From a virus, in the IMG/VR virus record IMGVR_UViG_3300018875_000005, positions 1-64,000 of that record: a stretch of DNA of 64,000 bases; one strand, given 5' to 3'. How positions within the stretch are numbered: the first letter of the stretch is position 1; every line of letters starts with the position of its first letter. This document shows, in pieces, positions 3,484 through 54,736 of the stretch. A program made the position numbers and the translations under genes. The notes beneath the pieces were generated by a model that saw nothing but the letters and a program-made list of their open reading frames with translations, was not told the origin of the DNA and ran no database searches.

Positions 3484-5724
3484 ATGTCCGACACCACCCA
3501 CACCACGCCGGCCGCCCACGGCGTCTCCACCACCGAGACCGCCGTGGCCGTCGCCACCCTCGCCGCCCCCGTCGCCGCCGGAGTCCTCGGCCCCCTCCTG
3601 GACCCGCAGGCGGCCTTCTTCGCCGGCGGCCTCACCGCCGCCTGGGCCACCACCACCGCCACCGCCTACACCGGCGCCCTCCCCCAGCAGGCGCTCGACG
3701 CCCTCCCCGGCGGCGACATCCTCAAGGCCCACAGCGCCCCCATGCTCGTCTCCTCCCTGGCCTCCGGCATCGCCCTCGCCGCCGGCGCGCTCGGCGGCCC
3801 GGCCGCCACCGACGCCCTCATGGCCGGCCTCCTCACCCCCGCCTCCGTCCCCGGCATCGTCTCCCTGGGCTGGTGGGCCATGACCGGCCTGGTCGGCATG
3901 AAGCTCCGCCGTATCCTGCGCCCGCCCAAGCCCGGCGCACAGAGCCCCGCTGCCCCGGACGCCCCCGCCGCGCCCGTACCCAACGCCATCTGCACCGTGT
4001 GGGCCCGCTACATCTCCAGCCCCGACGGCACCCACCCCGGCCAGGAACTCCACCTGTACAAGAGCACCCCCGAGCAGTGGTCCGGCACCATCCAGGCCCC
4101 CGCCGGAAAGGCCGCCACCGTCACCCGCGAAACCGTCTCCAGCGTCTACCGCGTCCCCCTCGACCAAGTCGTCATCGAGCCCGGCGAAAGCGCCGGAGAA
4201 CAGCGCATCGAAGTCCACCTCACGGCCCTCACCCCCCTGGACGACGCCACCCTGGCCGGCCTGTGGGCCAAGCGCATCGCCCGCAAGGGCGGACTCCTGC
4301 CCGACACCCACCTGGAGGAGATCCAGCCCGACCCCGCCACCGGCGGCGAGGTCGCCTGGGTCGTCGCCGACGAGGACCGCGACTCCCTCCCCGCCCAGGT
4401 CGACCGCCGCGACCTCGCCGGCGCCCTGCGCACCAACGCCCTGCTGATCTCCTACGAACCCAGCCGCCGCGACCCCCGCCGCGCCGTGATCCGCCGCATG
4501 GACCACAACCCCCTGGAGAAGGGCACCCCGTTCACCGGCCCCGACATGCTCAAGCCCACCAAGGGCGGCTACTTCCAGATCGGCACCGCGGTCTCCGGCC
4601 GCCCGGTCCGCGCCCAACTCTTCGACCCCAAGCTCGGCGCAAGGCACCTCATCGTCACCGGCGTCACCGGCGCCGGCAAAGGCGGCGTCCTGCAACTCCT
4701 GGCCCTGGCCGCCCACCTGGACGGCGCCGCCATCCTCTACGGCGACCCCAAGGGATCCTCCAACCCCGTCATCGAGGACATGGCCGCCCACTCCGGCCTG
4801 GGCGAAGAAGGCGCCATGGGCACCCTGCTCATCGCCAAGGCCCTCCTCAACCACCGCATCACCGAGACCGCCCGGCTGAAGCAGAAGAACTTCGACCGCA
4901 CGCGAATGCCCCACGTGGTGCTGATCCTCGACGAGTCGTCCAGCCTGCTGGGCGAGAACGCCAAGTTCGCCCCCCTCGCCGTCCCCATCATGGAAGAACT
5001 CACCCGACTGGGCCGCTCCATGGGCATCTCCGTCGTCCTCGCCGACCAGCTCCTCCAGCTCGCCCGGCTCGGCTCCTCCGCGGTCCGCGACAACATCGTC
5101 GGCAACGGCGGCCTGATCCTGCTCCGCGCCGACTCCAGCCAGCGGAACCTCATCGACCTGCCCCCCGGCCTGGAGGGCTGCAACCCCGCCGACATCCCCG
5201 CCACCTGGAGCGCCGACGACGAACACCTCGTCTACGACGGAACCGTGGAGATCGGCGACCCCGAGACCACTTTCGGCCTGGGCTATTTCGCCACCACCGA
5301 CGCCGTGGCGGCCATGGCCCGCGCGCTCATCCTGGAGGACGCCTCCCCCTACATCGACCCCACCCGGGTCGTGGTCCCGTGGGACTGGCCCCAGTGGGAG
5401 CAGCGGCACGACATCGCCGAGCAGCCGACCGCCACGGAAGCCGCCCCGGCGCCGAACAGCAACAGCGGCACTCTGGACGGCTTCCTGGCAGCCCCCCAGG
5501 CTGCTCCCGCCACGGCCGAGGACAAGATCCTGCGCGCCCTGGAGGAGTGCGACCCGCTGGAGCTGCCCATGCCCGTGGCCGCGCTGATGGCCGCCACCGG
5601 CCTGGCCGAGTCCACCGTGCAGAACAAGGCCGGCGCCCTGGTCAAGGCCGGGAAGATCCTCCGCCCCCGGAAGGGCCACTACGCCCCGCTCGACTACACC
5701 GGCGAGACAGCAGAGGAGGAGTGA
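3484..5724 (+). CDS. FtsK/TraB-like DNA translocase
   Basis: This 746-aa protein has several hydrophobic segments in residues 15-140. They are followed by a FtsK/SpoIIIE-type motor: a Walker A-like GVTGAGKGG at about 392-400 (Gly replaces the usual Ser/Thr after Lys), Walker B VVLILDES near 477-485, and ADQLLQLARLG as sensor-like region. The C-terminus (about 675-746) is a winged-helix-like domain (AALMAATGLAESTVQNKAG). This order matches Streptomyces TraB proteins: membrane anchor, hexameric motor and wHTH that reads short repeats in clt and moves double-stranded DNA between hyphae. The ATG has a clean SD (GGAGG). A chromosome-type FtsK is unlikely because of the shorter N-region. Confidence 0.85.
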   Translation: MSDTTHTTPAAHGVSTTETAVAVATLAAPVAAGVLGPLLDPQAAFFAGGLTAAWATTTATAYTGALPQQALDALPGGDILKAHSAPMLVSSLASGIALAAGALGGPAATDALMAGLLTPASVPGIVSLGWWAMTGLVGMKLRRILRPPKPGAQSPAAPDAPAAPVPNAICTVWARYISSPDGTHPGQELHLYKSTPEQWSGTIQAPAGKAATVTRETVSSVYRVPLDQVVIEPGESAGEQRIEVHLTALTPLDDATLAGLWAKRIARKGGLLPDTHLEEIQPDPATGGEVAWVVADEDRDSLPAQVDRRDLAGALRTNALLISYEPSRRDPRRAVIRRMDHNPLEKGTPFTGPDMLKPTKGGYFQIGTAVSGRPVRAQLFDPKLGARHLIVTGVTGAGKGGVLQLLALAAHLDGAAILYGDPKGSSNPVIEDMAAHSGLGEEGAMGTLLIAKALLNHRITETARLKQKNFDRTRMPHVVLILDESSSLLGENAKFAPLAVPIMEELTRLGRSMGISVVLADQLLQLARLGSSAVRDNIVGNGGLILLRADSSQRNLIDLPPGLEGCNPADIPATWSADDEHLVYDGTVEIGDPETTFGLGYFATTDAVAAMARALILEDASPYIDPTRVVVPWDWPQWEQRHDIAEQPTATEAAPAPNSNSGTLDGFLAAPQAAPATAEDKILRALEECDPLELPMPVAALMAATGLAESTVQNKAGALVKAGKILRPRKGHYAPLDYTGETAEEE

Positions 5725-5847
5725 CCCGGAAGACCAGTGAACGGCCCCGCCCACCCGGGCGGGGCCGCGGTGTACCGAATCCGCCCCACCCCGCACCGCT
5801 TAGACCGGACACTGAGAACCCACCACCTGAAGGAGGCCCCGACCACC

Positions 5848-6543
5848 GTGGCCAGCCCGTCCCGCCGCCGCACCCCCCGGCCTGCGCGCCGCACCGCAGG
5901 CGTCCCCCGGCAACGCCCCACCCCCCGCCCCACCCGGAAGACCAGGGAACCGCTGCTCATCCCGACCAGCCTCCGCAACGCCGCCTCCTACCTCCACGGC
6001 TGGGCCTGGATCGCCGCCGGCGTCACCGCCGGCACCATCCTCATCCTCTGGACCGAGTACGTCATCGCCGCCTGCGTCGCCGCGCTGATCGCCGCCTCCT
6101 GGTGGGACCGGCACCACGCCCCGTTACGCCCCCGCACCCCCGCCGCGGGCGGCCTCGCCCAGTACCGGGCCATGGCCCCCACCGCGTTCGAGGACGCCAT
6201 CGCCGCCCTCGCCCGCCGCTCACCCGACGTCGCCCGCGCCACCCGCGCCGGCGGCTCCAACGACCGCGCCCTCGACGTCCTCGTCCAGCTCCGCGACGGC
6301 CGCCGCATCCTCATCCAGTGCAAGCGCTACACCGGCAACGTCGGCGCCCCCGCCCTGTACCAGGTCAACGGCACCTACCGGTCCACCCACCGCTGCCAGA
6401 TGGCCGTCGTCGTCACCACCGCCGGATTCACCCGATCCGCACTGGAATGGAACGCCTCCCTGCCCCGCGCCGAACGCCTCCGCCTGGTCGACGGGCCCGC
6501 CCTCATGGCCTGGGCCCGGGGCGGACCACCCCCCTGGGCATGA
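5848..6543 (+). CDS. Mrr-like restriction endonuclease, membrane-anchored
   Basis: The GTG start at 5848 is chosen because AAGGAGG precedes it by about ten bases. The open frame extends further upstream without an SD. The 231-aa product has a basic N-terminus, two transmembrane helices (about 50-85), then a PD-(D/E)XK Mrr_cat-type domain: FEDAIAALARR, GGSNDRALDVLV with the catalytic Asp, and ILIQCKRY with the QxK motif. Such TM-Mrr proteins cleave modified or foreign DNA, or process plasmid DNA. It directly follows the translocase gene and ends at a strong terminator, so it is the last gene of the transfer operon. Confidence 0.75.
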   Translation: MASPSRRRTPRPARRTAGVPRQRPTPRPTRKTREPLLIPTSLRNAASYLHGWAWIAAGVTAGTILILWTEYVIAACVAALIAASWWDRHHAPLRPRTPAAGGLAQYRAMAPTAFEDAIAALARRSPDVARATRAGGSNDRALDVLVQLRDGRRILIQCKRYTGNVGAPALYQVNGTYRSTHRCQMAVVVTTAGFTRSALEWNASLPRAERLRLVDGPALMAWARGGPPPWA

Positions 6544-6948: not shown

Positions 6949-7446
6949 ATGGCCAAGTCCAAAGCCGAGCAAGCCGACGTCGCCGCACGCCGCGCCGCCC
7001 TCATCCGGCTCCGCCGCGCCGGCGTCCAATTCGACGACCCGCGCATCCTCGCCCTCGGCTACGCCTCCCCCAACGCCGCGTCCAAGGACATGATCCGCGC
7101 GCTCAAACAGCGCCGCGACGAGCAGGACGCCGAGGTCTCCGTCTACCGCCAGCAGGAAGGCGAACGCCTCGACGCGCTGCTGGAGGCCGTCTGGGACAAC
7201 GCGATGCAGGGCGACCCCCGCGCCATCGAGGCCGCCCTGAAGATCGCCGACCGGCGCGCCAAGCTCTACGGCATCGACGCCCCCCAGCGCACCGAGGTCT
7301 CCGGTCCCGACGGCGGCGCCGTCCCGCTCGGCTCTGGCTCCCTGGCCGAGCTGAACAAGCTCATCTCCATCGCCGGGCAGACCGGACCCGAACTCGAAGC
7401 CCCCGCAGACGCCGACACCGACGCCGATGACGACCGCGCCCCCTGA
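6949..7446 (+). CDS. terS: Terminase small subunit
   Basis: The ATG at 6949 (MAKSKAEQADVAARR) is preferred over an upstream GTG that lies inside a hairpin. The 165-aa product has an N-terminal HTH-like DNA-binding region (AGVQFDDPRILALGYASPNAASKDMIRAL), a central helical oligomerisation segment and the phrase ALKIADRRAKLYGIDAP, characteristic of actinophage small terminase subunits. It recognises the packaging site and regulates TerL. It overlaps the terL start by 20 bp, and this tight coupling supports the call. Confidence 0.8.
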   Translation: MAKSKAEQADVAARRAALIRLRRAGVQFDDPRILALGYASPNAASKDMIRALKQRRDEQDAEVSVYRQQEGERLDALLEAVWDNAMQGDPRAIEAALKIADRRAKLYGIDAPQRTEVSGPDGGAVPLGSGSLAELNKLISIAGQTGPELEAPADADTDADDDRAP

Positions 7447-9022
7447 GTACGACCCCGACCTGTTCGACGAGGACGAGCACGCCGAAGCAGACCTCATCGC
7501 CCGCTACCGCACCCTCACCGTCGTCGAACGCCGCCGGGTCGCCCGCCGCGCCTCCCCCGAACTCCGCGCCCGCCTGGCCCACGAGGAACGCCAGATGGCC
7601 ATGGACCGCTCCCCCGGGGCGCTGGCCGCCGTGCTCACCGAGGGACGGGAACTCCAGGCCCCGCACTTGGACCTCATCGACGGTGTCTTCCAGCGCATCG
7701 CCAACGGCGAGCGGCTCCAGGTCATGCTGACCATGCCCCCGCGGCACGGAAAGTCGCAGCGGGCCTCCCGGTGGGGACCGCTGTGGTACCTGCGGCGCCA
7801 TCCCGAGCACCGCGTCATGATCGCCTCCTACGGTGCCAGCCTTGCCGAGGACCACGGCCGCTGGATCCGCGATCAGCTCCAGGAGTACCCCGACACCCTC
7901 GGCATCCGCCTCCACCCCGCCTCACACGCCGCGAACCGGTTCGACCTCGAGCAGAAACGCGGCTCGTCCGTGCGGGGCGGCATGGTCACCGCCGGTGTCG
8001 GCGGCGGACTTACTGGAAAAGGTTTTCATCTAGGTATCATCGACGACCCGTTTAAGGGCAACGACGACTCCGGCAGCCCCGCCCAACGCGACCGCGTCTA
8101 CGACTGGTACCGCTCCGTCTTCTTCACCCGCCGCGCCCCCGGCGCCTCCATCATCCTGATCAACACCCGCTGGCACGAAGACGACCTCTCCGGCCGCCTC
8201 CTGAAGAACGAACCCCACCGCTGGATCCAGATCGACCTCCCCGCCATCGCCGACAGCCCCCACGACCCCCTCGGCCGCTCCATCGGCCAAGCCCTCTGGC
8301 CGTCTCAGTACGACGAAGCCGACCTGGCGGACACCCGCGAATCTCTCGGCGAGCGCATCTGGTACGCCATGTACCAGCAGAAACCCCGCCCGTTGGAGGG
8401 CGGCGTGTGGAAGTGGGCCTGGATCACCGGCAACCGCATCACGGTCGAGGCGTGGCCCGGCGTCACCCCCACCCGTGTCGTCGTCGCCGTCGACCACGCC
8501 GGCGGCGACTCCCTCCGCAACGACGAGGTCGGCCTCACCAGCGCGGCCCGCGACGGCCGCGGGCACCTGTACGTCCTGGACGACCGCTCCCGCACCATGG
8601 GCGCCGACACCTGGGGCACCGAAGCGTGCCTGCTGGCCATCGAACGACAGGCGGACGCGATCGTGGTGGAGAACAACTTCGGCGGCGACATGGCCCGCCA
8701 GATCGTCACCCAGGCGTGGGCGGAACTGGAACGTGAGGGCAACACCGGAGGCATGGTGATGCCGCGCATCGTCGAGGTCCACGCGAAACAGGGCAAGCGG
8801 CTTCGGGCGGAGCCGATCGCGCAGCTCTACGCCCGCGGCCTGGTCCACCACGTGGGGGAGTTCACCGAACTGGAGGGCCAGATGGTCACCTGGGTGCCGG
8901 GCATGGACTCCCCGGACCGGATGGACGCGGCCGTGCACGCCCTGACCGAACTGGCCGACCCCGCAGCCGCCAACACCGGGTCGCAGTCCTACGCCGACCG
9001 CCGGCTCACCGGCCGCAGGTGA
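7427..9022 (+). CDS. terL: Terminase large subunit
   Basis: The 531-aa product has an ATPase domain with Walker A PPRHGKS at about 105-111, Walker B GIIDDP near 203-208, and the coupling motif in INTRWHEDD. The C-terminal RNase H-like nuclease has VVAVDHAGGDS at about 350-360 and further acidic residues (DAIVVENNFGGD and the final MDSPDRMDA). Length and order are normal for an intact Terminase_6 family protein. It cuts concatemers and drives DNA into the prohead through the portal. Confidence 0.95.
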   Translation: MTTAPPEYDPDLFDEDEHAEADLIARYRTLTVVERRRVARRASPELRARLAHEERQMAMDRSPGALAAVLTEGRELQAPHLDLIDGVFQRIANGERLQVMLTMPPRHGKSQRASRWGPLWYLRRHPEHRVMIASYGASLAEDHGRWIRDQLQEYPDTLGIRLHPASHAANRFDLEQKRGSSVRGGMVTAGVGGGLTGKGFHLGIIDDPFKGNDDSGSPAQRDRVYDWYRSVFFTRRAPGASIILINTRWHEDDLSGRLLKNEPHRWIQIDLPAIADSPHDPLGRSIGQALWPSQYDEADLADTRESLGERIWYAMYQQKPRPLEGGVWKWAWITGNRITVEAWPGVTPTRVVVAVDHAGGDSLRNDEVGLTSAARDGRGHLYVLDDRSRTMGADTWGTEACLLAIERQADAIVVENNFGGDMARQIVTQAWAELEREGNTGGMVMPRIVEVHAKQGKRLRAEPIAQLYARGLVHHVGEFTELEGQMVTWVPGMDSPDRMDAAVHALTELADPAAANTGSQSYADRRLTGRR

Positions 9023-9901: not shown

Positions 9902-11833
9902 GTGGGCCTCATCAGCGGCGCCAAGCGCGTAGTCCTCGACGCCTGGTCGTGGCTCAACTACAAGCCGGTCTTCTCCGACGACCTGCGCGGCATGCCCAAC
10001 CGGCGCGTCTACCCCGAGGCCGTCGCCACCTGGGTTCCCGCCGACGACGAACGCCGCCTGGCCGCCTACAAGACGCTGGTCGCCTACGACCAGAACCAGG
10101 CCGGCGAGCTGGCCGCGATCGTGGACGGCCCCGAGGCCCGCGAACGCCGGGAGTTCGGCGACGCCGCCCAGTTCGTTGACACGCTCGTCTCCCACGTCCT
10201 GGGCCGGGAGCAGCACATCGTGGTCCCCGGCGCGGAGGACACCCCCACCGACGGCGACGACCCGGACCCGGAGGCCGCGACCGCGGCCCGCGTCCAGGAG
10301 CTGCTGCGCGCCTGGGCCGAGGCCGAGCTGCTGCCGATGCGGATGCAGCAGACCGAACGCAAGGCCGTGCTGCTGGGGGACGGCGTCTACCGGCTCGCCT
10401 GGGATCCCGGCAAACGCCGCGTGACGGTGAGGAGCCACGATCCGGGCTTCTACTTCCCGGTGTTGCCCGAGGACGGCGACGGGGAGTTCCCCACCCGCGT
10501 CCACTTCGCCTGGGAACTGCCCGCCGACCCCCGGCGGAAGCTCCCCGCCCGGCTCCGCAGGATCACCTACGAGCTGGACTTCATCCGCCCGGCCAGCGTC
10601 AACGGGGTCGACGCCCGCGGCCGGGCCGTCCGCGCCCCCCTCCCGGTGGAGGCAGCCGACGGCGACGAGGTGCCGCCGCCGATCCTCACCCCCGGCGACC
10701 TGATGAACCCCGACACCGGCGCCATCAGCAGGATGTACGCCTGGAACGACGAGCCGAGCTACGTCACCTGCTACCTGACCGACGCCACCTGGGACCTGGG
10801 CGACCTCAAGGGCACCAACCTGGACGTCGACAACCTCCCGATGGACGCCGCGGTGTTCGCCACTCGCGGCGACGGCGAGGTCCTGGACCACCTCGACCTA
10901 ATGATCGACTTCATGCCGATCATCCACGTCCCCAACACCGTCCCCGGCGCGGAGGAGCACTGGGGCCAGTCCTCCCTCGCCAAAATCCTCCAAGTGCTGG
11001 ACGAGTTGCAGGGCACCGACACCGACAGCAGCAAAGCCAGTGCGACCACCGGCTCGCCGATGGTGTCCTTCTCCGGCGAGGCCGCCGGCGGCCAGAAGAT
11101 GCTCGAGGTCGGCCCCGGCATCGCCCACTACCTCGGCGCCAACGGCCGCATGGACGTCCTCAACACCGCCCCCCAGCTCGCCGAACTCCGCCACCGCACC
11201 GAGGAACTGCGCGACCGGGCCGCGACCGTCGCCCGGCTGCCCGCCGTCGCACTCGGCACCAACGACCCCTCCCAGGTCCCCTCCGGCTACGCGCTCCAGC
11301 TCTCCCTCGGCCCGCTCGACGCGCTCATCTCGTCCATGCGGCTGGCCCGGGACCACAAATACGCGCTGCTGCTGAAGATGGTCCAAAGGCTTCACATCGC
11401 CGGGCAGCATCCCGACTGGGTGGGCCTGCCCGTCCTGCCCGCGCGCCTGGTGTTCGGCCCCTACACCCCCGTCGACAAGACCGGCGTCCTCGAGCAGGTC
11501 GGCATCGGCGTGGAGAAGGGCGTGCTGTCGCTGGAGACCGCCGTCGCGATGCTGACCGAGGCCGGGTTCCCCATCGACGACGCCGCCGAGGAGATCGGGC
11601 GGATCCAGGCCCGGCAGTTCGAGAAGGCCCGCGCGCTGGCGGACGCGCTCGGCGACCCGCAGGCGGTCGCGGACTTCCTGGGCCTCCAGCCGCCCGCCGT
11701 GCCCGCCCCGCCGGCTCCGGTCCTGCCGCCCGCCCCCGGCGACCAAACCCAGGACGACGAGGACGAGGAAGACGACCCCGCCGTGACCAGCGGAAACACC
11801 GCCCCCGGGCAGAGCGGGGGGAACCCCCGGTGA
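9902..11833 (+). CDS. Portal protein
   Basis: The frame opens at a GTG at 9893, but the GTG at 9902 sits at the right distance from GGAGGGG and is preferred. The product has 643 aa, usual for large actinophage (SPP1 gp6-like) portals. Features are the N-terminal PNRRVYPEAVATWVPADDERRLAAYKTL, the tungsten-like VLLGDGVYRLAWD and VRSHDPGFYFPVL region, and a helical crown after residue 430. The C-terminus is Pro-rich with an acidic DDEDEEDD tract. The dodecameric portal forms the head vertex through which DNA passes. Its end overlaps the frame of the next gene. Confidence 0.9.
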   Translation: MGLISGAKRVVLDAWSWLNYKPVFSDDLRGMPNRRVYPEAVATWVPADDERRLAAYKTLVAYDQNQAGELAAIVDGPEARERREFGDAAQFVDTLVSHVLGREQHIVVPGAEDTPTDGDDPDPEAATAARVQELLRAWAEAELLPMRMQQTERKAVLLGDGVYRLAWDPGKRRVTVRSHDPGFYFPVLPEDGDGEFPTRVHFAWELPADPRRKLPARLRRITYELDFIRPASVNGVDARGRAVRAPLPVEAADGDEVPPPILTPGDLMNPDTGAISRMYAWNDEPSYVTCYLTDATWDLGDLKGTNLDVDNLPMDAAVFATRGDGEVLDHLDLMIDFMPIIHVPNTVPGAEEHWGQSSLAKILQVLDELQGTDTDSSKASATTGSPMVSFSGEAAGGQKMLEVGPGIAHYLGANGRMDVLNTAPQLAELRHRTEELRDRAATVARLPAVALGTNDPSQVPSGYALQLSLGPLDALISSMRLARDHKYALLLKMVQRLHIAGQHPDWVGLPVLPARLVFGPYTPVDKTGVLEQVGIGVEKGVLSLETAVAMLTEAGFPIDDAAEEIGRIQARQFEKARALADALGDPQAVADFLGLQPPAVPAPPAPVLPPAPGDQTQDDEDEEDDPAVTSGNTAPGQSGGNPR

Positions 11834-11895: not shown

Positions 11896-12639
11896 ATGCG
11901 CCGCCCCGCGCTGCACCGCCCCGCCCCCGCCACCGGCCCGGGGTGGTCCCACCCCTACACCGGCCTCCCCGCCGCCGCGGTGTTCTACAACGACGGCGGC
12001 GACCCCAGCCCCGACCCCACGCCTCCCACTCCCGGCGCCCCGGCCGCCCCGAAGCCCGGCCCCCCGGCCGGCACCGTCACCATGACCCAGGACGAGCTGT
12101 CGGCGTTCGCCGCCAAGGAGAAGTCCCAGGGCAAGCGCTCCGCGCTGAAGGAGTGGGCCGCCGAGCACGGCTTCAACTCCCCCGACGACGCCGCCGCGTT
12201 CATCAAGGCCGCCCGCCAGGCCCAGGAAGAGGCCATGACGGAGCAGGAGAAGCGCGAGCAGGCCCTCGCCGCCAAGGAGCGGGAACTGGCCGCCCGGGAG
12301 GCCGAGGCCGCGGCCCGGCTGCGGGAGGCCACCCGCAAGGCCGTGCTCGTCTCCCTGGGCGCTACCGGCGTGGACCTGGAGGACGCCACCGCGCTGCTGC
12401 GGGTGGACGCCGACGCCGACGACGCGGCCGTCCGGGAGGCCGCCGAGAAGCTGAAGGAGCGCCGCCCCGAGCTGTTCGGCGGCACCCGCCCCGCCGACCG
12501 TCAGACCCCGCCCCCCGCGCCCGGCGGCGCCCCGGCCGGCGGCCCCCCCATCCGGCCCCCGGCCGCCAAGGACGACGTCAAGGAACGCGCCCGCCAGCGG
12601 GCCATCGCCATGGGCTACGCCCGCCCCGACGCCGCCTGA
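11896..12639 (+). CDS. Capsid scaffolding protein
   Basis: The ATG at 11896 is chosen because GGGAGGA lies nine bases upstream; the frame is open from 11830. The 247-aa product has a Pro/Gly-rich N-third, then a long charged coiled coil (about 75-155, with EEAMTEQEKREQALAAKERE), a short helical segment DLEDATALLRVDADADDAAV, and a basic C-terminus (VKERARQRAIAMGYARP). This architecture and position between portal and decoration/capsid genes is typical of gp20-type scaffolds, which assemble the prohead and then leave. Confidence 0.8.
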   Translation: MRRPALHRPAPATGPGWSHPYTGLPAAAVFYNDGGDPSPDPTPPTPGAPAAPKPGPPAGTVTMTQDELSAFAAKEKSQGKRSALKEWAAEHGFNSPDDAAAFIKAARQAQEEAMTEQEKREQALAAKERELAAREAEAAARLREATRKAVLVSLGATGVDLEDATALLRVDADADDAAVREAAEKLKERRPELFGGTRPADRQTPPPAPGGAPAGGPPIRPPAAKDDVKERARQRAIAMGYARPDAA

Positions 12640-12753: not shown

Positions 12754-13176
12754 ATGGACATCCAGCCGATCACCACTGAGGAGACCGTCACTGCGGAGCG
12801 GCCCTGGCTGCTGTCCCTGCACGGCTCCGAGACCAACAAGACCGTCACTCTCGATCTGTCGGCGTTCACCGAGGACACCCACTGGATCGAGGGCACCCCG
12901 CTGATGCCGCAGCGGCGCCTGAAGTCCGGCATCCCGCTGGGGCGGATCACCGCCTCCGGCCTGTACGGGCCGTACACCACCGGCGCCTCCAACGGCACCC
13001 AGGTCTTCGCCGGGCTGCTGGCCACCGAGACCGCCTACAACCCCACCTCCACCCGGGTCGGCGCCGCGATGATCGTTCACGGTGACGTGGACGTCGCCAA
13101 GCTCCCGGTCGCGTTCACCGTCCCCGCCGCCGGATCCCGCACCGACGGCATCGTCTTCTCCGACTCCGACGCCTGA
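12754..13176 (+). CDS. Head decoration protein (HDPD-like)
   Basis: The ATG at 12754 has GGGAGGAG upstream. The 140-aa product contains TETAYNPTSTRVGAAMIVHGDVDVAKLPVAF split by small loops, the pattern of lambda gpD-like head decoration proteins that trimerise on the capsid and stabilise it. Length and place directly before the major capsid gene agree. Confidence 0.75.
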   Translation: MDIQPITTEETVTAERPWLLSLHGSETNKTVTLDLSAFTEDTHWIEGTPLMPQRRLKSGIPLGRITASGLYGPYTTGASNGTQVFAGLLATETAYNPTSTRVGAAMIVHGDVDVAKLPVAFTVPAAGSRTDGIVFSDSDA

Positions 13177-13191: not shown

Positions 13192-14238
13192 ATGCTTGAA
13201 GCCCTGCTCAGGGACATCGACGCCACCGAGATCAACGCCTTCGCGCGGGAGGTGCAGACCCCCGCCGACTACGCGCTCACCCTCTCCGTGATGCCGGAGC
13301 GGCGGATCAACTCGGTGAAGTTCCGCACCAAGCGGACCGAGCGCCGCGTCAACGCCGCCTCCTACCGGGCGTTCGACGCGCAGACCAAGGTCGCCACCCG
13401 CGAGGCCAAGCGGATCGTCACCGAGGGCATGCTGCCCCCGCTCGGCCAGAAGTACCTGGTCGGCGAGCTGGAGCAGATCCTGCTGGACACCTCCCGCGGC
13501 GCCGACTCGTCCGAGCTGGTGGAGCTGCTGTACCAGGACGTCGCCGCGCACGTGCAGGCCATCCGCTCCCGCCTGGAACTCGCCGTCGGCGACCTGCTGA
13601 CCGACGGCAAGTTCACCCTCAACGCGGAGAACGGCCTGACAGTCGAGTACGACGCCGGCGTGCCATCCGCGAACATGCCCACCGCCGCCACCCCGTGGAC
13701 CGACCCCACGGCGGACGCCCTGGCGGACGAGATGGCCTGGATCGAGGTGCTGCGCGCCTCCGGGGCCCCGCTCCCGGCCCGCGTCATCACCTCCTACAAG
13801 GCCCGCGCGCTGCTGGCGTCCAACGACGCCTACCGCCGCGCGTTCTACGGCCAGCCCGCCGCGCAGACCCCCACCGGCGTCCTGGCGCCGAACGAGGTCG
13901 ACACCGTCCGCGCCCGCTACGGCCTGCCGCCCATCGAGGTCTACGACGTGCAGATCCCGGTGGACGGCGGCGGCATGACCCGCCCCATCCCCGAGGACCG
14001 GTGGATCATGCTCCCGCCGAACGCCACCCAGTGGGGCGAGACCCAGTACGGCGTCACCGCCGAGTCGCTGGTGCTGTCCTCCGGTTCCAACCCGGCCATC
14101 GAGCGGCAGGAGGCACCCGGCATCGTCGTCACCCACGGCTACACCGACGACCCGGTCCAGGTGTGGACCAAGGGCGCGGCCGTGGCGATGCCGGTGCTGT
14201 ACGTGCCGGACATCCACATCACCGCGAAGGTGTTCTGA
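13192..14238 (+). CDS. Major capsid protein (lambda gpE family)
   Basis: The 348-aa product begins MLEALLRDIDATEINAFARE and has the features of Phage_cap_E proteins: an N-arm, VKFRTKRTERRVNAASYRAFD, a long spine-helix region (EREAKRIVTEGMLPPL-like), the peripheral domain around IEVLRASGAPLPARVITSYKA, and a C-terminal HGYTDDPVQVWTKGAAVAMP. It is intact and of normal length. It starts 15 bp after the decoration gene and forms the icosahedral shell. Confidence 0.92.
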   Translation: MLEALLRDIDATEINAFAREVQTPADYALTLSVMPERRINSVKFRTKRTERRVNAASYRAFDAQTKVATREAKRIVTEGMLPPLGQKYLVGELEQILLDTSRGADSSELVELLYQDVAAHVQAIRSRLELAVGDLLTDGKFTLNAENGLTVEYDAGVPSANMPTAATPWTDPTADALADEMAWIEVLRASGAPLPARVITSYKARALLASNDAYRRAFYGQPAAQTPTGVLAPNEVDTVRARYGLPPIEVYDVQIPVDGGGMTRPIPEDRWIMLPPNATQWGETQYGVTAESLVLSSGSNPAIERQEAPGIVVTHGYTDDPVQVWTKGAAVAMPVLYVPDIHITAKVF

Positions 14239-16654: not shown

Positions 16655-17100
16655 TGGCCGGCCTGGACGACGCCCTGGCCCCGGTGGCCGCCTGGATCAC
16701 CGGCAACGTGCTGGTGGACACCGTCCGGATCAGCCTGCCCGCCACCGGGGATCCCGTGCTGAACGAGACCACCGGCCAGCTCGAGTACCCCGAGCCGGAG
16801 GTGCTGTACGAGGGGCCCGGTGCGGTGCAGCCGCTCACCACGGACATCACCGCGGTCCCCAACGCGGGCCTGCCCTGGGTGGCAGAGACCAAATCCCGCT
16901 ACCAGCTCCTCACCCCGCTGGACGCGCCGGTCGCCCCGAAGGACGCCACCGTGAAGGTCACGGCCGTCCACGAGGGCGGGGATCCGGCGCTGCTGCGCCG
17001 CTCCTGGCGGTGCCAGGACCCCTCCCGCGCGGCCACCCTCGCGGTGGTGCGGGCCACGCCGCTGGACCAGAACCAGCAGTCCGCCCAGGAGGTGCCCTGA
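16654..17100 (+). CDS. Head-tail connector, DUF6093-like
   Basis: The ATG at 16654 overlaps the upstream TGA. The 148-aa product has ITGNVLVDTVRISLPATGDP, a beta-strand-rich core and GAVQPLTTDITAVPNAGLP. This looks like the DUF6093 family found between capsid and tail genes in Streptomyces phages (recalled, not searched). By position it is a stopper or head-completion protein. Its stop overlaps the next ATG by one base. Confidence 0.65.
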   Translation: MAGLDDALAPVAAWITGNVLVDTVRISLPATGDPVLNETTGQLEYPEPEVLYEGPGAVQPLTTDITAVPNAGLPWVAETKSRYQLLTPLDAPVAPKDATVKVTAVHEGGDPALLRRSWRCQDPSRAATLAVVRATPLDQNQQSAQEVP

Positions 17101-17501
17101 TGCCCGACCTGACCCCCGGAGAACTGGCCGACCGGCTGGAGCAGTCCGCCAAGGACCTTCCGGAGGCGATGCGGCGCCGGCTGCGGCACGCCGCCGAACT
17201 GGGCCGCGCCCGGATCCGCGGCCACGCCTCGGGCCGGCCGGGGCCGAACGTCATCTCCGGCGACTACCGCCGCTCCTGGAAGGTCCCCACACCTCGCCGC
17301 ATCCCCTACGGCGCCGAGTGCATCATCGGCACCGAGGCGCCGCAGGGCCGCCGCCTGGAGTTCGGGTTCTACAACCGGACCGACTCCCTGGGCCGCCACT
17401 ACTTCCAGCCGCCGTTCCCGCACGTCGGACCGGCGATCCCCTACATCGAGCACGAGATGCAATGGGGTGTCCGCGCGGTGGTGGCGGAGGTGCTGCGCTG
17501 A
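17100..17501 (+). CDS. HK97 gp10-like head-tail joining protein
   Basis: The 133-aa product has a helical N-terminus (DRLEQSAKDLPEAMRRRLRH), GDYRRSWKVPTP and YGAECIIGTEAPQGRRLEFG. The segment with LEFGF, a PFPHVGPAIP loop and a terminal helix is the typical outline of HK97 gp10-type proteins, which connect head and tail. Starts and stops overlap with neighbours (TGATG). Confidence 0.7.
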   Translation: MPDLTPGELADRLEQSAKDLPEAMRRRLRHAAELGRARIRGHASGRPGPNVISGDYRRSWKVPTPRRIPYGAECIIGTEAPQGRRLEFGFYNRTDSLGRHYFQPPFPHVGPAIPYIEHEMQWGVRAVVAEVLR

Positions 17502-18101: not shown

Positions 18102-18587
18102 ATGCCACCCGTCAAGAAGTTCATGCGCCGCGGCACATCCCTGTTCTACTTCGTGCCGACCATCGCCGCCACGTCCATGATCCCCACCCGTTCCGAACTG
18201 ACCGCTGGCACCAACCTCACCCAGGCCATCGCCGAACTCGACGGCTGGACCCAGACCAACAACACCATCGACACCCCCGACATGGCGGACACCTTCGATT
18301 CGAAGATCCCCGGGTCGGACGCGGCCGACGACTCCTCGATGACGTTCTACGAGGACGAGGACGAGGACACCATCGAGACCCTGCTGGCCAAGGGCACGTC
18401 CGGCTACATCGTGATCCTCCGCAAGGGCGACGTGCCCGCGTCGGAGTCGATGGACATCTTCCCCGTCCGGGTCGCCTCCCAGAGCCCGCAGTACACCGCC
18501 GACAACGAGGCCGCCAAGTTCCAGGTGACGTTCACCATCACCTCCCGGCCGGTGCAGGGCGCCGCGGTCCCGGCCGCCACCCCGTAA
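18102..18587 (+). CDS. Major tail tube protein
   Basis: The ATG at 18102 has CGAGGGG upstream; a CCGCAC/GTGCGG stem (18053-18074) lies in the leader. The 161-aa product is beta-rich (VPTIAATSMIPTRSELTAGT, DGWTQTNNTIDTPDMADTF, FPVRVASQSPQYTADN) and ends in an Ala/Pro tail. It has the usual composition of actinophage tail tube subunits and stands directly before the tail chaperone genes. It polymerises around the tape measure to form the tail. Confidence 0.85.
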   Translation: MPPVKKFMRRGTSLFYFVPTIAATSMIPTRSELTAGTNLTQAIAELDGWTQTNNTIDTPDMADTFDSKIPGSDAADDSSMTFYEDEDEDTIETLLAKGTSGYIVILRKGDVPASESMDIFPVRVASQSPQYTADNEAAKFQVTFTITSRPVQGAAVPAATP

Positions 18588-25943: not shown

Positions 25944-25955
25944 AGGAGGCCCGCG

Positions 25956-48914: not shown

Positions 48915-50237
48915 ATGGGGGATTTGCGTCATTCATCCGCCCCTATCGGCGGCACCGAGTACCGCATCCCCGACCACCAGCAGCACATCCACAGCACCCC
49001 GTGCCGCCGCACCGGCCCCCGCCGCTGGCTCCGCGCCGTCACCTGGGCCGTCGCCGCCGGACTCCACCCCAAGGCCACCGCCACCACCCTCGCCGTCGCC
49101 GAAGACCTCGCCGGCCGCATGCACTTCGACACCGGCCACGTCCTGTACGGCCTCGACAAGATGGTCGCCCGGCTCGGCCTCTCCCGGTCCTGCATCACCG
49201 CCCACATCCGCATCCTCCGGGAGATGGGCCTCCTCGCCTGGGTCCAGCAGGGCACCCGCGCCAACATCCGCCGCGCTCTCGGCCTCAAGGGGTACGCCGG
49301 GACCGCCACCGTGTACGCCGCGACCATCCCCCCCGCCTACGACACCGCCATGGGTCACCGCACCGTCGGCGCCGGCTACACCGCGCGGGTCGTCGTGGAC
49401 TACCGGACCATGCCGAAGCCGTCAGGAGAGTCTTCCCTCGGCGACTCCCATGACGGCTCCCCTGAGACTCCCCAGACTGCCGCGAAACGATCTTCGTGGA
49501 CCCCTTCCCTAAACGTGGTTAAGGAGGAGGAGAAGGTTCAGGTGAGTGGTGGGTTTACTACTACCGCTGGCGCGGCAGCCAACCACGAGCCCGCCCCCAC
49601 CAACACCGACAACGCCACCGGCAGCCGCCGCGGCGGAAAGGGCCGCGACAAGGCCAGCCGGAAGCGCACCACGATCTGCGGGCAGCCCATCACCGGCCGC
49701 ATGATCGCCGAGGCCCGGCGCCTCGCCCCCCACCTGCGGGCCCGCGTCAACTGGCTCCAGAAAGCCAGCTACGGCCAGCTCTCCTGGGTGCTCCTGGACC
49801 CGATCGCCTGGGGCTGGGACGAGGAGCAGATCGTCTCCTGGTGCTACGCCCTCGGCCGCGTCTCCCACGACGGCCGCCCGTGGCGCCCCCGCTGTCCGCA
49901 CCGCGTCCTCGCCAAGCACCTCCGCGCCGAACACGACCAGGCCACCGTCGAGACCGGCCTCGTCACCGCCGCCGAGAGCCCGTCCTGGCAGGCGTACCTG
50001 CTGCGCCAGTCCCTCGCCGCCCTCGCCACCGAGGCCGCCAACGACCTCGAGGACACCACCCCGGCCCGCACCGACGAAGACCGCCGCATCGCCCGCTACC
50101 ACGGCATGAACGACCTCGCCGCGGTCGCCGACCACGTCGAACGCGACCCCGACGACGCCCTCGACCTGTACGGCACCTACCTGTGCACCCGCGCCATCCG
50201 CCTCACCGCCTCCACCCACTTCACCCAAGGAGCCTGA
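48915..50237 (+). CDS. wHTH replication-type protein
   Basis: The frame opens at a GTG at 48873, but that lies inside the -10 box, so the ATG at 48915 (MGDLRHSSAPIGG) is preferred although it lacks an SD. The 440-aa product has an MarR-like winged helix at about 70-125 (LDKMVARLGLSRSCITAHIR, EMGLLAWVQQGTRANIRRAL), a Ser/Gly linker, and a second domain (about 230-440) with CGQPITGRMIAEARRLAPHL and WGWDEEQIVSWCYALGRVSH. It resembles helix-turn-helix replication proteins of Streptomyces plasmids and phages, but an initiator role is inferred. Confidence 0.65.
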   Translation: MGDLRHSSAPIGGTEYRIPDHQQHIHSTPCRRTGPRRWLRAVTWAVAAGLHPKATATTLAVAEDLAGRMHFDTGHVLYGLDKMVARLGLSRSCITAHIRILREMGLLAWVQQGTRANIRRALGLKGYAGTATVYAATIPPAYDTAMGHRTVGAGYTARVVVDYRTMPKPSGESSLGDSHDGSPETPQTAAKRSSWTPSLNVVKEEEKVQVSGGFTTTAGAAANHEPAPTNTDNATGSRRGGKGRDKASRKRTTICGQPITGRMIAEARRLAPHLRARVNWLQKASYGQLSWVLLDPIAWGWDEEQIVSWCYALGRVSHDGRPWRPRCPHRVLAKHLRAEHDQATVETGLVTAAESPSWQAYLLRQSLAALATEAANDLEDTTPARTDEDRRIARYHGMNDLAAVADHVERDPDDALDLYGTYLCTRAIRLTASTHFTQGA

Positions 50238-50240: not shown

Positions 50241-50699
50241 GTGACCGACAACCGAGACATCCTCGCCTGGCTGGACGCCGCCATCAGCCTTCGTGAAGCG
50301 GCGGCAAAGGATGCTGCGCGCTCGTACGGACCTAGGTGGGTTCGCCCGGTCGACAGCGACATGGTGCGCGTCTCGGAAGACGACATCTGGTTCCAGGCGC
50401 TGAGCGACGAGATTGCTGAGCACATCGTCTACAACAGCCCCGAGGTGGTGCTGCGGCGCTGCGCCGCCGACCGGAAGACGCTGAGCTACTACCGCTCCCT
50501 CAAAAGCATCGCCGAAACGCCCGACGAGGAGCAGAAGACCCGGCAGCGGTGGAAAGACGGCCGCGCCTCCGCAGGTGAAATGATCGACGCGCTGAACGCC
50601 GGGGCTCTCCGCGAACACGCCCTCCAGTCCCTCGAAGCGCTGGAGCCCGTCATCCGCAACCTCGCCGAGGGCTACGGCTGGACGGAGGGCGGCCAGTGA
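50241..50699 (+). CDS. DUF6221-like protein, paralog of 47592
   Basis: The 152-aa product shares the RDILAWLDAAISLREAAAKD opening, PEVVLRRCAADRKTL and the NLAEGYGWTEGGQ ending with the gene at 47592, but lacks that protein's extra cysteines and has a helical insert (KDGRASAGEMIDALNAGALR). It lies three bases after the Rep-like gene and overlaps the next start. Confidence 0.75.
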   Translation: MTDNRDILAWLDAAISLREAAAKDAARSYGPRWVRPVDSDMVRVSEDDIWFQALSDEIAEHIVYNSPEVVLRRCAADRKTLSYYRSLKSIAETPDEEQKTRQRWKDGRASAGEMIDALNAGALREHALQSLEALEPVIRNLAEGYGWTEGGQ

Positions 50700-51487
50700 C
50701 CACCACGCCCGAGCACTCCGGCGCCGACCTCGCCCGCGTCGCCCTCGCCGCCGCCCGCAAGGCCGCCAAAACCCGCCCCGTCAACGACCGGGCCGCCCGC
50801 CGGCGCCGCACCACCCGCCGCCGCGGCACCGGCCGCGACCCCCTCCAGCTCGGCGCCGCCATCGGCCAGCTCATGGACGACCGCGCCTGGGACGCCCCCA
50901 CCGCCGGCGCGGACATCGTCGCCGACTGGCCCACCATCGCCCCCGAACTCGCCGGGCACGTCGCCGCCGAACGCTTCGACACCGACACCGGCGTCCTGTG
51001 GCTGCGCCCCGCCTCCCCCGCCTACGCCGCGAACCTCCGCCTCCTCGAACGCCAGATGGTCCGCCGCATCAACGAGAAAGCCGGCCGGGACATAGTCCGG
51101 GGCCTGCGGGTCCTCACCCCCGGCCGCATCGACCCCGCCCCCGCGGCGGCGCCCGCCTTTACCGCGGTAAAGCCCACCCCGGCGCCGGAGCCTGCCGAGC
51201 CGCTGCCCCCGCACCCCGCCTACCTCGCCGCCCGCGAAGCCATCCGCGCCGCACAACAGGCCCACGACAACAACCCCGAACAGGCCCTGCGCGACCGGTA
51301 CTTCGCCGGGCACCGCAACACCCTCCGCGAACCCGACCCCGCGTTCGCCGACGCCGTCACCGCCCTCGAGACCGCCCAGACCGCCGAGGACCGGGACGCC
51401 GCCCGACGGGCCGCCATCGCCCGCGCCCGCGACCAGCGCGCCGGCCGCTACCCCACCACCCCCCGACCCCTCGGCGGCGCCGCCTGA
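50696..51487 (+). CDS. DciA-like (DUF721) protein
   Basis: The ATG/GTG start at 50696 overlaps the upstream stop. The 263-aa product has a basic N-terminus and then a KH-like DUF721 core (about 45-150): DPLQLGAAIGQLMDDRAWDA, IVADWPTIAPELAGHVAAER, GVLWLRPASPAYAANLRLLE, RRINEKAGRDIVRGLRVL. A Pro/Ala linker and a helical tail follow. DciA interacts with DnaB helicase and promotes its loading in most bacteria. A plasmid-borne copy beside a Rep-like gene suggests it recruits the host helicase to the element's origin. Confidence 0.78.
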   Translation: MTTTPEHSGADLARVALAAARKAAKTRPVNDRAARRRRTTRRRGTGRDPLQLGAAIGQLMDDRAWDAPTAGADIVADWPTIAPELAGHVAAERFDTDTGVLWLRPASPAYAANLRLLERQMVRRINEKAGRDIVRGLRVLTPGRIDPAPAAAPAFTAVKPTPAPEPAEPLPPHPAYLAAREAIRAAQQAHDNNPEQALRDRYFAGHRNTLREPDPAFADAVTALETAQTAEDRDAARRAAIARARDQRAGRYPTTPRPLGGAA

Positions 51488-51494
51488 GCCACGG

Positions 51495-52061: not shown

Positions 52062-52173
52062 GGCCGCAGCCTACGAACGGCCGCCTGCCCTCGGGGCCGA
52101 TCCGGGGCAATCCCCCGGCCACGACTGCGGCACCGTAGACCCCACCCCTTCCCCCGAGAACAGGAGCACCGCC

Positions 52174-52272
52174 ATGCGCGACCCCCTCCACCTCAGCCTC
52201 CTCGCCGTCCTCCTCATCGCCATCGCCCTCGTCACCGCCGCCCTGACGATCACCGCGCGGGAGGGCCTGTGA
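52174..52272 (+). CDS. 32-aa membrane peptide
   Basis: The ATG at 52174 has ACAGGAGCACC upstream. The peptide (MRDPLHLSLLAVLLIAIALV) ends TAALTITAREGL, a single transmembrane helix with short charged ends. It overlaps the next GTG by four bases (GTGA). It is short, but the SD and coupling support it. Confidence 0.55.
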   Translation: MRDPLHLSLLAVLLIAIALVTAALTITAREGL

Positions 52273-52451
52273 CCACCACCCCCGCCCGGCCCGTCACCAC
52301 CATCCGCACCCAGCCACGCCCCCAACCCCCGGACTGGCGCCACGTGTTCCTCGAGCCCGCCTACACCGACGGCCGCCCCTGGAATGACCCCCACGACGAC
52401 GGCAGACCCGGCTGCGAAGACGAGGAGGACGCCGTCGTCATTACGACGTAA
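52269..52451 (+). CDS. Small acidic-tailed protein before parA
   Basis: The GTG at 52269 overlaps the previous stop. The 60-aa product has a Pro/Arg start (TTTPARPVTTIRTQPRPQPP), DWRHVFLEPAYTDGRPWNDP and an acidic end (CEDEEDAVVITT). Its last codons lie within the first ParB-type palindrome. No family is recognised. Confidence 0.55.
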   Translation: MTTTPARPVTTIRTQPRPQPPDWRHVFLEPAYTDGRPWNDPHDDGRPGCEDEEDAVVITT

Positions 52452-52517
52452 TGACGGCCCGTCTCCGGCTGCGGGACAGCCGCCCGGGGCGGTCTTCATT
52501 ACGGCGTAATGAAGACC
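52437..52517. promoter_or_regulatory. parS: parS/operator palindromes upstream of parA
   Basis: GTCATTACGACGTAATGAC (52437-52455) is a perfect palindrome with one central base. A second palindrome at 52491-52517 has 13-bp arms (GGTCTTCATTACG and its inverse) around one base. Their centres are 58 bp apart. The shared core CATTACGnCGTAATG recurs at 54479-54493 inside parB. They precede parA by 67-147 bp. Three copies around one par operon point to the ParB centromere, with possible operator function for ParA. Confidence 0.8.
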
Positions 52518-52583
52518 GGGCGGGAGAGTGAAACACGGAGCCTCCTGCTCCTCACCCGCCTCACGCGTCAGTATGGTGACGCC

Positions 52584-53732
52584 ATGGCATCTCCGTATCC
52601 CGACGGCGACCGGGAAAAGGTAGCGTCGAAGCTCCCGGCCGCACTCCGGCAAGAACTCAAGATCCGCACCGCCGAGCACGGCGTCGACATCCAAGACGCC
52701 GTCACCGAAGGCATCCACGCCTGGCGCGCCGACGACGGCCCGCATCCGACCGTCGACACCGCCGGCGCCGAGTCCTTCTCCACCTGGCTCCCCGCCGGCC
52801 TCTACGACTCCTTCAAGACGACCTGCACCGCCCGCGGCATCTCCTACACCCAGGGCCTAGCCCAGTCCGTCCGCCGCTGGCTGGAGACCCACCCCTCCCC
52901 CGGCCGGCAGCCCCACACCGGACCCCAGCGCAAAATCGTCTGCAACCAGAAGGGCGGCGTGGGCAAGACCGCCATCGCCGCGGGGATCGCCCAGGCATAC
53001 GCCGAGGACGGCAAGCGGGTCCTCCTCATCGACTACGACCCCCAGGGCCACCTGACCGAACAGCTCGGCATCGCCCAGATCCCGCCGGGCGAGGACAGCC
53101 TGGTGGCCCACATGTGCGCCGAGGGCAAAGCCGACCTCCGCGACCTGCTGGTCACCTTCGAAGACGAGCGCTTCGGCAAGCGGCTCCAGATACTGCCCGC
53201 GTGCTTCGACGGGTTCCTCCTGGACGCGAAGATCGCCACTAACACCCGCATCCGGCGCCGCGAGACCACTCTGGAGCGGGCCCTGGAACCGCTGGAGGCG
53301 GACTTCGACGTCGTCGTCATCGACTGCCCGCCGTCCCTGGGTATCGCCATGGACGCCGCCATCTACTACGGCCGCCGCCGCGAGGGGGAGCCCGAAGGCG
53401 TCTCCGGCGTCATCATCCCCGTCCTCGCCGAGGACTCCTCCGCCACCGCCTACGCCATGCTCACCGAACAGATCGAATCGCTGAAGGAAGATCTCGAGCT
53501 GGAACTGGACTACCTCGGCCTGGTGGTGAACCTGTACGACTCCCGCCGCGGGTTCGTCGCCACCTCCAGCCTCAAGCAGTGGAAGAGCCTGGGCGACCCC
53601 CCAGTCCTGGCGGTCATTGGAGACCTGAAGGAGCAGCGCGAGGCCGTCCGCATGGGCAAGCCGCTGCTGACCTACGCCCCCCACTGCGACCAGGCCGAGG
53701 CCATGCGGCAGATCGCGAGGGCCGCATCGTGA
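52584..53732 (+). CDS. parA: ParA partition ATPase with RHH-like N-terminus
   Basis: The frame opens at 52509, inside a palindrome, so the ATG at 52584 is preferred. TATGGT at 52572-52577 could be a -10 box, which would make the mRNA leaderless. The 382-aa product has about 100 N-terminal residues with two ribbon-helix-helix-like segments (KLPAALRQELKIRTAEHGVD, TWLPAGLYDSFKTTCTARGI). The ATPase follows: KGGVGKTAIAAG (about 123), LLIDYDPQG and VVVIDCPPS (about 243). ParA moves plasmid-ParB complexes over the nucleoid. It overlaps parB (GTGA). Confidence 0.92.
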   Translation: MASPYPDGDREKVASKLPAALRQELKIRTAEHGVDIQDAVTEGIHAWRADDGPHPTVDTAGAESFSTWLPAGLYDSFKTTCTARGISYTQGLAQSVRRWLETHPSPGRQPHTGPQRKIVCNQKGGVGKTAIAAGIAQAYAEDGKRVLLIDYDPQGHLTEQLGIAQIPPGEDSLVAHMCAEGKADLRDLLVTFEDERFGKRLQILPACFDGFLLDAKIATNTRIRRRETTLERALEPLEADFDVVVIDCPPSLGIAMDAAIYYGRRREGEPEGVSGVIIPVLAEDSSATAYAMLTEQIESLKEDLELELDYLGLVVNLYDSRRGFVATSSLKQWKSLGDPPVLAVIGDLKEQREAVRMGKPLLTYAPHCDQAEAMRQIARAAS

Positions 53733-54736
53733 CCGGCAAGGCCAAGCAGCTCGGCGCCTCGTCGGCGTTCGGCCGCGCCGGGACCGCCCGCAGCGCCCGC
53801 GGCCGACTCGCCGAGAAGGTCCTGGGCGGCAGCGACGACGGGCCGACCCGTCTCGCTCTCCACCTGCTCAGCCACAACCCGGACAACCCGCGTGACTCCC
53901 TGCCCGACGTCACCGAGCTGGCCGCGTCCCTACGGGACCACGGGCAGAAGTCCGCGGTGACCATCATGTCCCGCGAGGCGTATCTGGCGGCCAACCCCGG
54001 CCGCGAGGACGAACTCGAACCGCGGGCGGAGTACGTCGTCATCGACGGCAACTGCCGCCTGGCCGCCGCCCGGCAGGCCGGCCTGTCCTCACTGCGGGTC
54101 ATGATGGACGAGTCCCTGGGCGGCGACCCGGACGAGCTGCTGGAGTCCGCGCTGGTGGCCAACATCCACCGCCAGGACCTGGCCCCCCTGGACGAGGCGC
54201 GGGCGCTGAAGAAGCTGCTGGAAGTGCACGGCACTCAGGAGAAGCTGGCCAAGCGGCTGCACCGCTCCCAGGGCTGGGTCTCCCAGCGGCTGGCGCTGCT
54301 GTCCCTGACGCCCGAGCTGCAAAAGCGCCTCGAGGCCGGGGAGGAGCCGGTAGACCTGCTGCGCGCGGTGGGGAAGAAGCCGCCGGAGCGGCAGGAAGAG
54401 GAACTGGCGCGGCTGAAGGAGGAACGGACCCGGAAGCAGACTGCGAGGCAGGCGGCGAAGCAGTCCGGGGAAGACGGCCATTACGGCGTAATGAGGAGGA
54501 AGGCGCGCCCGGCCGCGTCTCCCGTTCCCGCGACCGGGGAAACCCCGCCTCCACCGGTCCCGCCGGCTCAAGCCGAGCCGCCTGCCCCGCCGGCCCCGAC
54601 TGGAGCGGCTGGAACGGAACCGCGGCGGGTGACGGTGACACTGCCGCTGCACGACCCCGGGGCGGTGTGCCTGATCCTGCGCGAGCGGATGGAGCCCGAG
54701 GCGTTGCAGACCCTCATCAAGCTCCTCACCCAGTAG
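53729..54736 (+). CDS. parB: ParB centromere-binding protein
   Basis: The GTG at 53729 overlaps the parA stop. The 335-aa product has an N-terminal ParB/Srx domain (about 40-125) with a DGNCRLAAARQAG CTP-binding patch (variant of GERR) and NIHRQDLAPLDEARALKKLL, then an HTH (TQEKLAKRLHRSQGWVSQRL, about 169-195). A Pro-rich linker leads to a C-terminal dimerisation segment. One parS-type palindrome lies within its coding sequence near residue 252. It spreads from parS and is segregated by ParA. Confidence 0.92.
   Translation: MTGKAKQLGASSAFGRAGTARSARGRLAEKVLGGSDDGPTRLALHLLSHNPDNPRDSLPDVTELAASLRDHGQKSAVTIMSREAYLAANPGREDELEPRAEYVVIDGNCRLAAARQAGLSSLRVMMDESLGGDPDELLESALVANIHRQDLAPLDEARALKKLLEVHGTQEKLAKRLHRSQGWVSQRLALLSLTPELQKRLEAGEEPVDLLRAVGKKPPERQEEELARLKEERTRKQTARQAAKQSGEDGHYGVMRRKARPAASPVPATGETPPPPVPPAQAEPPAPPAPTGAAGTEPRRVTVTLPLHDPGAVCLILRERMEPEALQTLIKLLTQ
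54479..54493. promoter_or_regulatory. parS: Third parS-type palindrome, inside parB
   Basis: CATTACGGCGTAATG is identical in core and centre to the second site upstream of parA. It encodes HYGVM inside a linker of ParB, a place where coding constraint is low. Its persistence suggests selection on the DNA site. Confidence 0.7.

Follow-up and report, generated by a model that had tools for sequence, protein, structure and literature searches.

A probable pZL12-family phage-plasmid with an SCP2-TraA-type DNA translocase upstream of its terminase

The IMG/VR virus record IMGVR_UViG_3300018875_000005 has 86,092 bp, of which bases 1–64,000 form the stretch of 64,000 nucleotides analysed here (the window); the remainder of the element lies beyond it. 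We consider it likely that the element is a pZL12-family phage-plasmid from Streptomyces or a close relative, and this degree of confidence is a joint one for the whole explanation, in which a siphovirus late module, plasmid genes and a transfer cassette with a DNA translocase (the motor) resembling TraA of plasmid SCP2 share one circle. The element adds an SCP2-TraA-type member to a family for which the combination of phage and transfer was already known. As a plasmid it would persist through parAB and replication genes of its own, and the late operon would build and release long-tailed virions. A separate cassette, beside a divergent gene for a GntR regulator, would supply a DUF2637 membrane protein, accessory proteins and a membrane-anchored SCP2-TraA-type motor; GntR would repress the cassette, the motor would drive the circle, as double-stranded DNA, into an adjacent hypha during mating, and an array of short motifs within the membrane-protein gene may be the docking site of the transfer or spreading complex.

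Circular replicon, phage module and plasmid functions

The first 147 bp of the record recur at its other end with one mismatch. Trimming the repeat leaves a circle of 85,945 bp, and the DUF2637 gene across the junction continues in frame to its stop codon. Because the record ends repeat, the element is probably a circle of 85.9 kb, a size shared with the circular replicons of approximately 85–94 kb in the pZL12 family. Genes were called with our own caller, which uses codon-position GC content, giving 127 in the whole record; no tRNA was found in the window. Of the 127 genes, 53 have a match in pZL12; 26 of these matching genes belong to the late module, where their order is mostly conserved. 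The terminase large subunit (TerL) is approximately 72% identical to that of pZL12 and 57–86% identical to those of 34 plasmids from Streptomyces or Kitasatospora, which with few exceptions measure 85–94 kb; the close TerL relatives are mostly complete plasmids from Streptomyces isolates. The element also has the syntenic late operon and parAB of the family and a transfer cassette upstream of TerL, the motor class differing from that of pZL12. The repeated ends, the plasmid relatives and the pZL12 matches bear out the original prediction, made from the window sequence alone, that this is a phage-plasmid.

The late module spans 6949–31507 and was recognised from terminase to holin by PHROG and Pfam models, as expected of the full siphovirus module first proposed; no tail sheath was found among the proteins tested, which fits the siphovirus assignment. 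Position, directly upstream of and overlapping terL, makes the first product of the module a possible small terminase subunit. At the partition locus, Pfam matches to ParA and ParB and a 15-bp palindrome, CATTACGNCGTAATG, agree with the earlier assignment of parAB with palindromic sites: the palindrome has just three copies in the record, two immediately upstream of parA and one within parB, and such recurrence is rare among its other palindromes of 15 bp. Of the Rep-like/DciA pair named at the outset, the DciA half stood (Pfam E 1e-13); the Rep-like half is a helix-turn-helix protein that matches pZL12.20c, and no library family describes it as acting in replication. Another replication-gene candidate, a relative of pZL12.82, lies at record positions 78759–80228.

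These results also bear on whether the element could be a chromosomal prophage with plasmid-like genes, seen solely as an excised circle. A tyrosine recombinase is present, and distant relatives (TerL 60–62%) lie on contigs of up to 10 Mb. However, no chromosomal flank was recognised among the gene calls over the whole record, the close relatives are plasmid records, parAB is accompanied by three palindromes, and the megabase-contig relatives are without any of the five motor classes described below in the DNA examined. A prophage identity was therefore rejected, and we regard it as highly improbable. The relatives at 61–62% TerL identity on contigs of 0.1–10 Mb (L083–L089) have portal and often head homologues at wider spacing, and are perhaps integrated or domesticated.

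The motor and its cassette

The motor, of 746 amino acids (aa), has Walker A (GVTGAGKG) and Walker B (LILDE) motifs. An AlphaFold2 model (predicted local distance difference test, pLDDT, 79) comprises N-terminal helices at residues 16–140, which their hydrophobicity suggests are membrane-inserted, a RecA-like core and a C-terminal winged helix at 678–735; its closest structure in the PDB is TcpA, the coupling protein of conjugative plasmid pCW3 (E 3e-10), followed by FtsK. In a maximum-likelihood tree, the motor clusters with SCP2 TraA and two related phage-plasmid motors (support 99/97), and chromosomal FtsK, pIJ101 TraB, the pCQ3 and pCQ4 TraB proteins and the pZL12 motor all fall elsewhere, several tips outside the SCP2 TraA group having long branches. 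Profile comparison gave E-values of 3e-17 for SCP2 TraA, 1e-7 for pCQ4 TraB and 3e-6 for chromosomal (host) FtsK, and a direct match to SCP2 TraA had an E-value of 2e-12. An identity as chromosomal FtsK was rejected on the profile values and the separate position in the tree. The label of a pIJ101/pSVH1-type TraB was likewise rejected, because the curated TraB model is silent on the motor and its tree position is elsewhere. Thus, of the TraB/FtsK-like motor originally described, the FtsK/HerA-like part is upheld by predicted fold and Walker motifs, whereas the TraB-type part gives way to an SCP2-TraA type. Pfam FtsK_SpoIIIE did not match the motor, which is uninformative because curated pCQ4 TraB and SCP2 TraA also fail or fall below its cut-off.

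Motor relatives were found in 111 plasmid records, all from Streptomyces or Kitasatospora. A tblastn search of the INPHARED phages with the motor found none, although pZL12 is included there, because the pZL12 motor differs. In IMG/VR, a single-sequence scan for relatives gave none and an alignment-based scan gave 48 loci. One relative, the class A (window-type) motor of the S. platensis phage-plasmid NZ_CP108975, has a C-terminus 69% identical to the gamma domain, the DNA-reading domain, of Streptomyces chromosomal FtsK (L014 11185–11370), which gives the appearance of an appended host targeting domain. In two loci (L045 3870–4064 and L046 4375–4569), a gamma-like stretch (48%) is encoded separately from the motor, on its upstream side within the cassette region.

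The genes around the motor follow much of the order of the SCP2 transfer region. SCP2 has GntR, small genes, the DUF2637 gene 27c, two small genes, the large 23c, TraB, TraX and TraA; the element has GntR, small genes, the DUF2637 protein, two genes, a large protein, a small protein and the motor. The DUF2637 protein is 39.5% identical to SCP2.27c over 238 aa (E 9e-35), and the divergent GntR gene beside the cassette (record 80906–81703) matches SCP2 GntR at E 3e-5. None of the cassette genes at 66–5724 has a match in pZL12. Many relatives have the same cassette ahead of TerL, and class A motors also occur with their neighbours on plasmids where the 20 kb examined around the motor contain no phage gene. 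Homology, with the SCP2 TraA grouping and the SCP2-like order, supports the conjugative DNA translocase of the original prediction.

Several points weigh against this account of the element. The end repeat carries a mismatch, the sequence comes from an IMG/VR record, and the tyrosine recombinase could allow integration. The motor shares just 29% identity with SCP2 TraA over 246 aa and is unlike pZL12's own motor, so function cannot be transferred to it by close homology. The small-gene matches to SCP2 are weak: the CP109494 homologue of the large protein matches SCP2.23c at E 0.002, and the small protein at 3021–3395 matches SCP2 TraB at E 0.05 (E 0.003 for its CP109494 counterpart).

The slot upstream of the terminase and the motif arrays

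Motor class was assigned by tblastn in the 34 TerL-bearing plasmids (TerL identity down to 57%). Class A was found in 19, class B (pZL12 type) in three, class C in six, class D (TraB) in two and class E (closest to SCP2 TraA) in two, with none found in two; at least two of the five classes appear related to known conjugative motors. By listed coordinates, all 32 motors precede TerL and share its strand, the distance being up to approximately 5 kb in 31 cases and approximately 12 kb in CP054917. The three plasmids with TerL nearest to that of the window (82–86%) bear classes A, B and C. In the DNA examined of the 48 class A loci in IMG/VR, TerL lies downstream in 34 but not in the other 14, although 10 kb was available. 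All five FtsK/HerA-like classes are seen sharing the slot at loci L009, L010, L012–L015, L019, L021, L022 and L024–L026. In the DNA examined of Kitasatospora CP108485 (L023) and Streptomyces CP042280 (L079), no motor was seen upstream of TerL; in CP108485, a PhlD-type polyketide synthase gene lies there.

This distribution bears on a further explanation, that the motor is a vestigial passenger from a plasmid and is not kept by selection. Such decay would fit the two plasmids without a detected motor and two others in which the motor, of class A in one and class B in the other, is in several pieces (CP058980, CP075614). Against it, 32 of the 34 plasmids have kept a motor at a shared position, each belonging to one of the five classes, and the window copy is a complete open reading frame (ORF) with intact motor motifs; we think this explanation improbable. 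The TerL-bearing family plasmids examined were all typed as non-mobilizable, which is expected if the typing looks for relaxases; single-motor double-stranded transfer is not known to use them. An element that partitions, packages and may conjugate would have two horizontal routes independent of each other, one of which escapes plasmid typing.

Within the DUF2637 gene, the motif CGAACC has 22 copies (record 85595–85787), on one strand and in all three frames. In 5000 synonymous codon shuffles of the gene the mean was 5 and the maximum 14 (z 8.9). In four relatives with another membrane protein (67–86% mutual identity), the gene holds TGAGCC 19–20 times, with both strands and every frame represented (z 10.6–13.2). 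The pCQ4 array has the motif TGATGCG (z 9.7) and SCP2.27c has a cluster of GCCGAAGC. In a wider set, all group II membrane-protein genes carry TGAGCC and most group IV genes carry GATGC- or GAAGC-type motifs; no comparable array was found in group III genes (pZL12 type). This search for motifs was exploratory: they were chosen from the same genes in which they were later tested, a selection for which the shuffles make no correction, but chance is an unlikely cause given that several gene groups reach z-values of approximately 10. An origin in protein repeats was ruled out by copies in three frames, in several relatives on both strands, above synonymous shuffles. In an alignment of group II genes, many sites shift position and the total stays steady at 17–20, which fits selection on site number.

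Motif type tracks the membrane-protein gene and not the motor, because CP108469 pairs a group II gene and its TGAGCC motif with a class C motor. With a pIJ101/pSVH1-type TraB, the motor would read short repeats at clt; a motif array is present here, but its motif goes with the membrane-protein gene. An identity as recognition repeats of the motor (TRS) was rejected, since CP108469, with its class C motor, has the TGAGCC array of class A elements that share its membrane protein, and since CP108852, with a class A motor 81% identical to that of CP109494, has no array. The array is a candidate cis-acting transfer site, and we hypothesise that DUF2637-type proteins bind it; their C-termini look helix-turn-helix-like by eye, although no library names such a domain there. 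A full-text search of the papers available returned almost nothing on a role of DUF2637-type membrane proteins, for which the arrays are a concrete DNA-level lead.

A membrane protein of this kind could also serve a different end, the motor acting in intramycelial spreading or segregation (FtsK-like stability) and not in inter-strain transfer. Streptomyces transfer cassettes include spread genes. A DUF2637 membrane protein whose tail resembles a helix-turn-helix, and whose gene harbours a motif array, would suit tethering, and in pIJ101, SpdA2, with an in-gene site, affects stability and not transfer (PMC4170104). Set against this, the motor groups with SCP2 TraA, the major transfer protein, in a matching gene order, and we judge a role confined to spreading or segregation rather unlikely. 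Transfer remains the preferred function, and a broader proposal is made tentatively, as a plausible reading that could well be wrong: the slot upstream of the terminase would be exchangeable, with five motor classes reassorting independently of the membrane protein, whose gene would carry its own DNA landing site, and this array would be the point at which the circle docks to the membrane when it is transferred or spread, specificity being set by the membrane protein and not the motor. The family-wide slot offers natural swaps bearing on which part of the Streptomyces transfer system sets specificity.

Feature coordinates and comparison with known systems

Table 1. Features of the element, in window coordinates unless marked; percentages are identities.
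Feature	Position	Strand	Evidence or remark
DUF2637 membrane-protein gene, 591 aa, across circle junction	record 84199–85974; 3′ end at window 1–29	+	DUF2637 E 2e-26
CGAACC array at window end, 7 copies and 5 reverse (GGTTCG)	34–244	.	two reverse copies within GGTTCGCGAACC palindromes
DUF6197 protein	66–593	+	Pfam DUF6197 E 3e-22; 56% to CP109494 homologue; no pZL12 match
Small cassette protein	600–1175	+	two hydrophobic stretches by eye; 32% to CP109494, E 5e-16
Large hydrophilic protein, SCP2.23c position	1303–3021	+	52% over 236 aa to CP109494
Small protein, SCP2 TraB position	3021–3395	+	51% to CP109494
SCP2-TraA-type FtsK/HerA-fold DNA translocase	3484–5724	+	tree, profile, predicted fold
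Mrr-type restriction nuclease domain protein	5737–6543	+	Pfam Mrr_cat E 3e-18
Possible small terminase subunit	6949–7446	+	54% to pZL12.68c
TerL	7427–9022	+	phrog_38 E 2e-99; 71–72% to pZL12
Portal protein	9902–11833	+	phrog_64 E 9e-11; 65% to pZL12.66c
Head scaffolding protein	11896–12639	+	phrog_2303 E 3e-23
Head decoration protein	12754–13176	+	phrog_3583 E 4e-39
Major head protein	13192–14238	+	phrog_29 E 3e-56
Tail completion or Neck1 protein	17100–17501	+	phrog_5 E 3e-8
Major tail protein	18102–18587	+	phrog_2491 E 4e-42
Tape measure protein, 1799 aa	19651–25050	+	PhageMin_Tail E 1e-42; phrog_10780 E 2e-95
Dit-like and minor tail proteins, three genes	25047–28024	+	phrog_5577, phrog_25212, phrog_1885
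Endolysin (Amidase_2, LysM, peptidoglycan-binding domain)	29725–31074	+	Pfam; phrog_880 E 4e-81
Holin	31118–31507	+	phrog_9752 E 2e-35
Tyrosine recombinase	36450–37580	+	Pfam and PHROGs; relatives in pZL12 and CP109494
Second, recombinase-like gene with helix-turn-helix	37592–38839	+	Pfam and PHROGs; relatives in pZL12 and CP109494
Helix-turn-helix protein (‘Rep-like’)	48915–50237	+	42% to pZL12.20c
DciA-domain protein	50696–51487	+	Pfam DciA E 1e-13; relative of pZL12.18c
Candidate parS palindrome, copy 1	52439–52453	.	CATTACGNCGTAATG
Candidate parS palindrome, copy 2	52497–52511	.	CATTACGNCGTAATG; core of longer perfect palindrome 52490–52518
ParA	52584–53732	+	Pfam AAA_31 E 2e-27
ParB	53729–54736	+	HTH_ParB E 6e-10
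Candidate parS palindrome, copy 3, inside parB	54479–54493	.	CATTACGNCGTAATG
Single-strand DNA-binding protein	63033–63524	+	Pfam SSB E 2e-31; 69% to pZL12.1c
Arrays in relatives' membrane-protein genes	L010 2291–2860; L013 4585–5163; L015 4649–5286; L021 4902–5533

The Mrr-type gene sits between the motor and the terminase; in CP107756, an annotated restriction endonuclease gene lies between the motor and TerL. The tyrosine recombinase and the recombinase-like gene after it may act in integration or in dimer resolution.

The best-studied relative is pZL12 (GQ919031), which is likewise circular (90 kb) and has the syntenic late operon, a DciA-like gene, parB and two recombinase-like genes, as well as an FtsK-like gene upstream of TerL that adjoins a large-protein gene and a membrane-protein gene. 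Conversely, the window motor is not BLAST-similar to pZL12.71c. To judge from a title cited in PMC4487206, pZL12 was described in 2010 as a plasmid, a plaque-forming phage and a transferable plasmid. Novelty of the combination of phage and conjugation is not supported, given that description and the curated TraB that pCQ3 and pCQ4 carry at the same site. These two family phage-plasmids (NC_013449 and NC_019307) have a transfer cassette where the window element has its own, but with curated TraA/TraB in place of the SCP2-TraA-type motor, TraB lying between cassette and terminase. Similarly, pSLE1 of S. leeuwenhoekii (LN831788), an 86.4-kb circular phage-plasmid, has a class A motor upstream of TerL, although this motor is 44% identical and is accompanied by another membrane protein and motif (TGAGCC). 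SCP2 of Streptomyces coelicolor (AL645771) shares the gene order from GntR to TraA, a motor that groups with that of the window and a motif cluster in the membrane-protein gene; it differs in having no phage module, in a motor identity of 29% and in a motor annotated as two ORFs, traX and traA. Finally, the TraB proteins of pIJ101 and pSVH1 are, like the window motor, double-stranded DNA transfer motors of the FtsK/HerA superfamily with a C-terminal winged helix, but the window motor is missed by the curated TraB model and lies in a different region of the tree.

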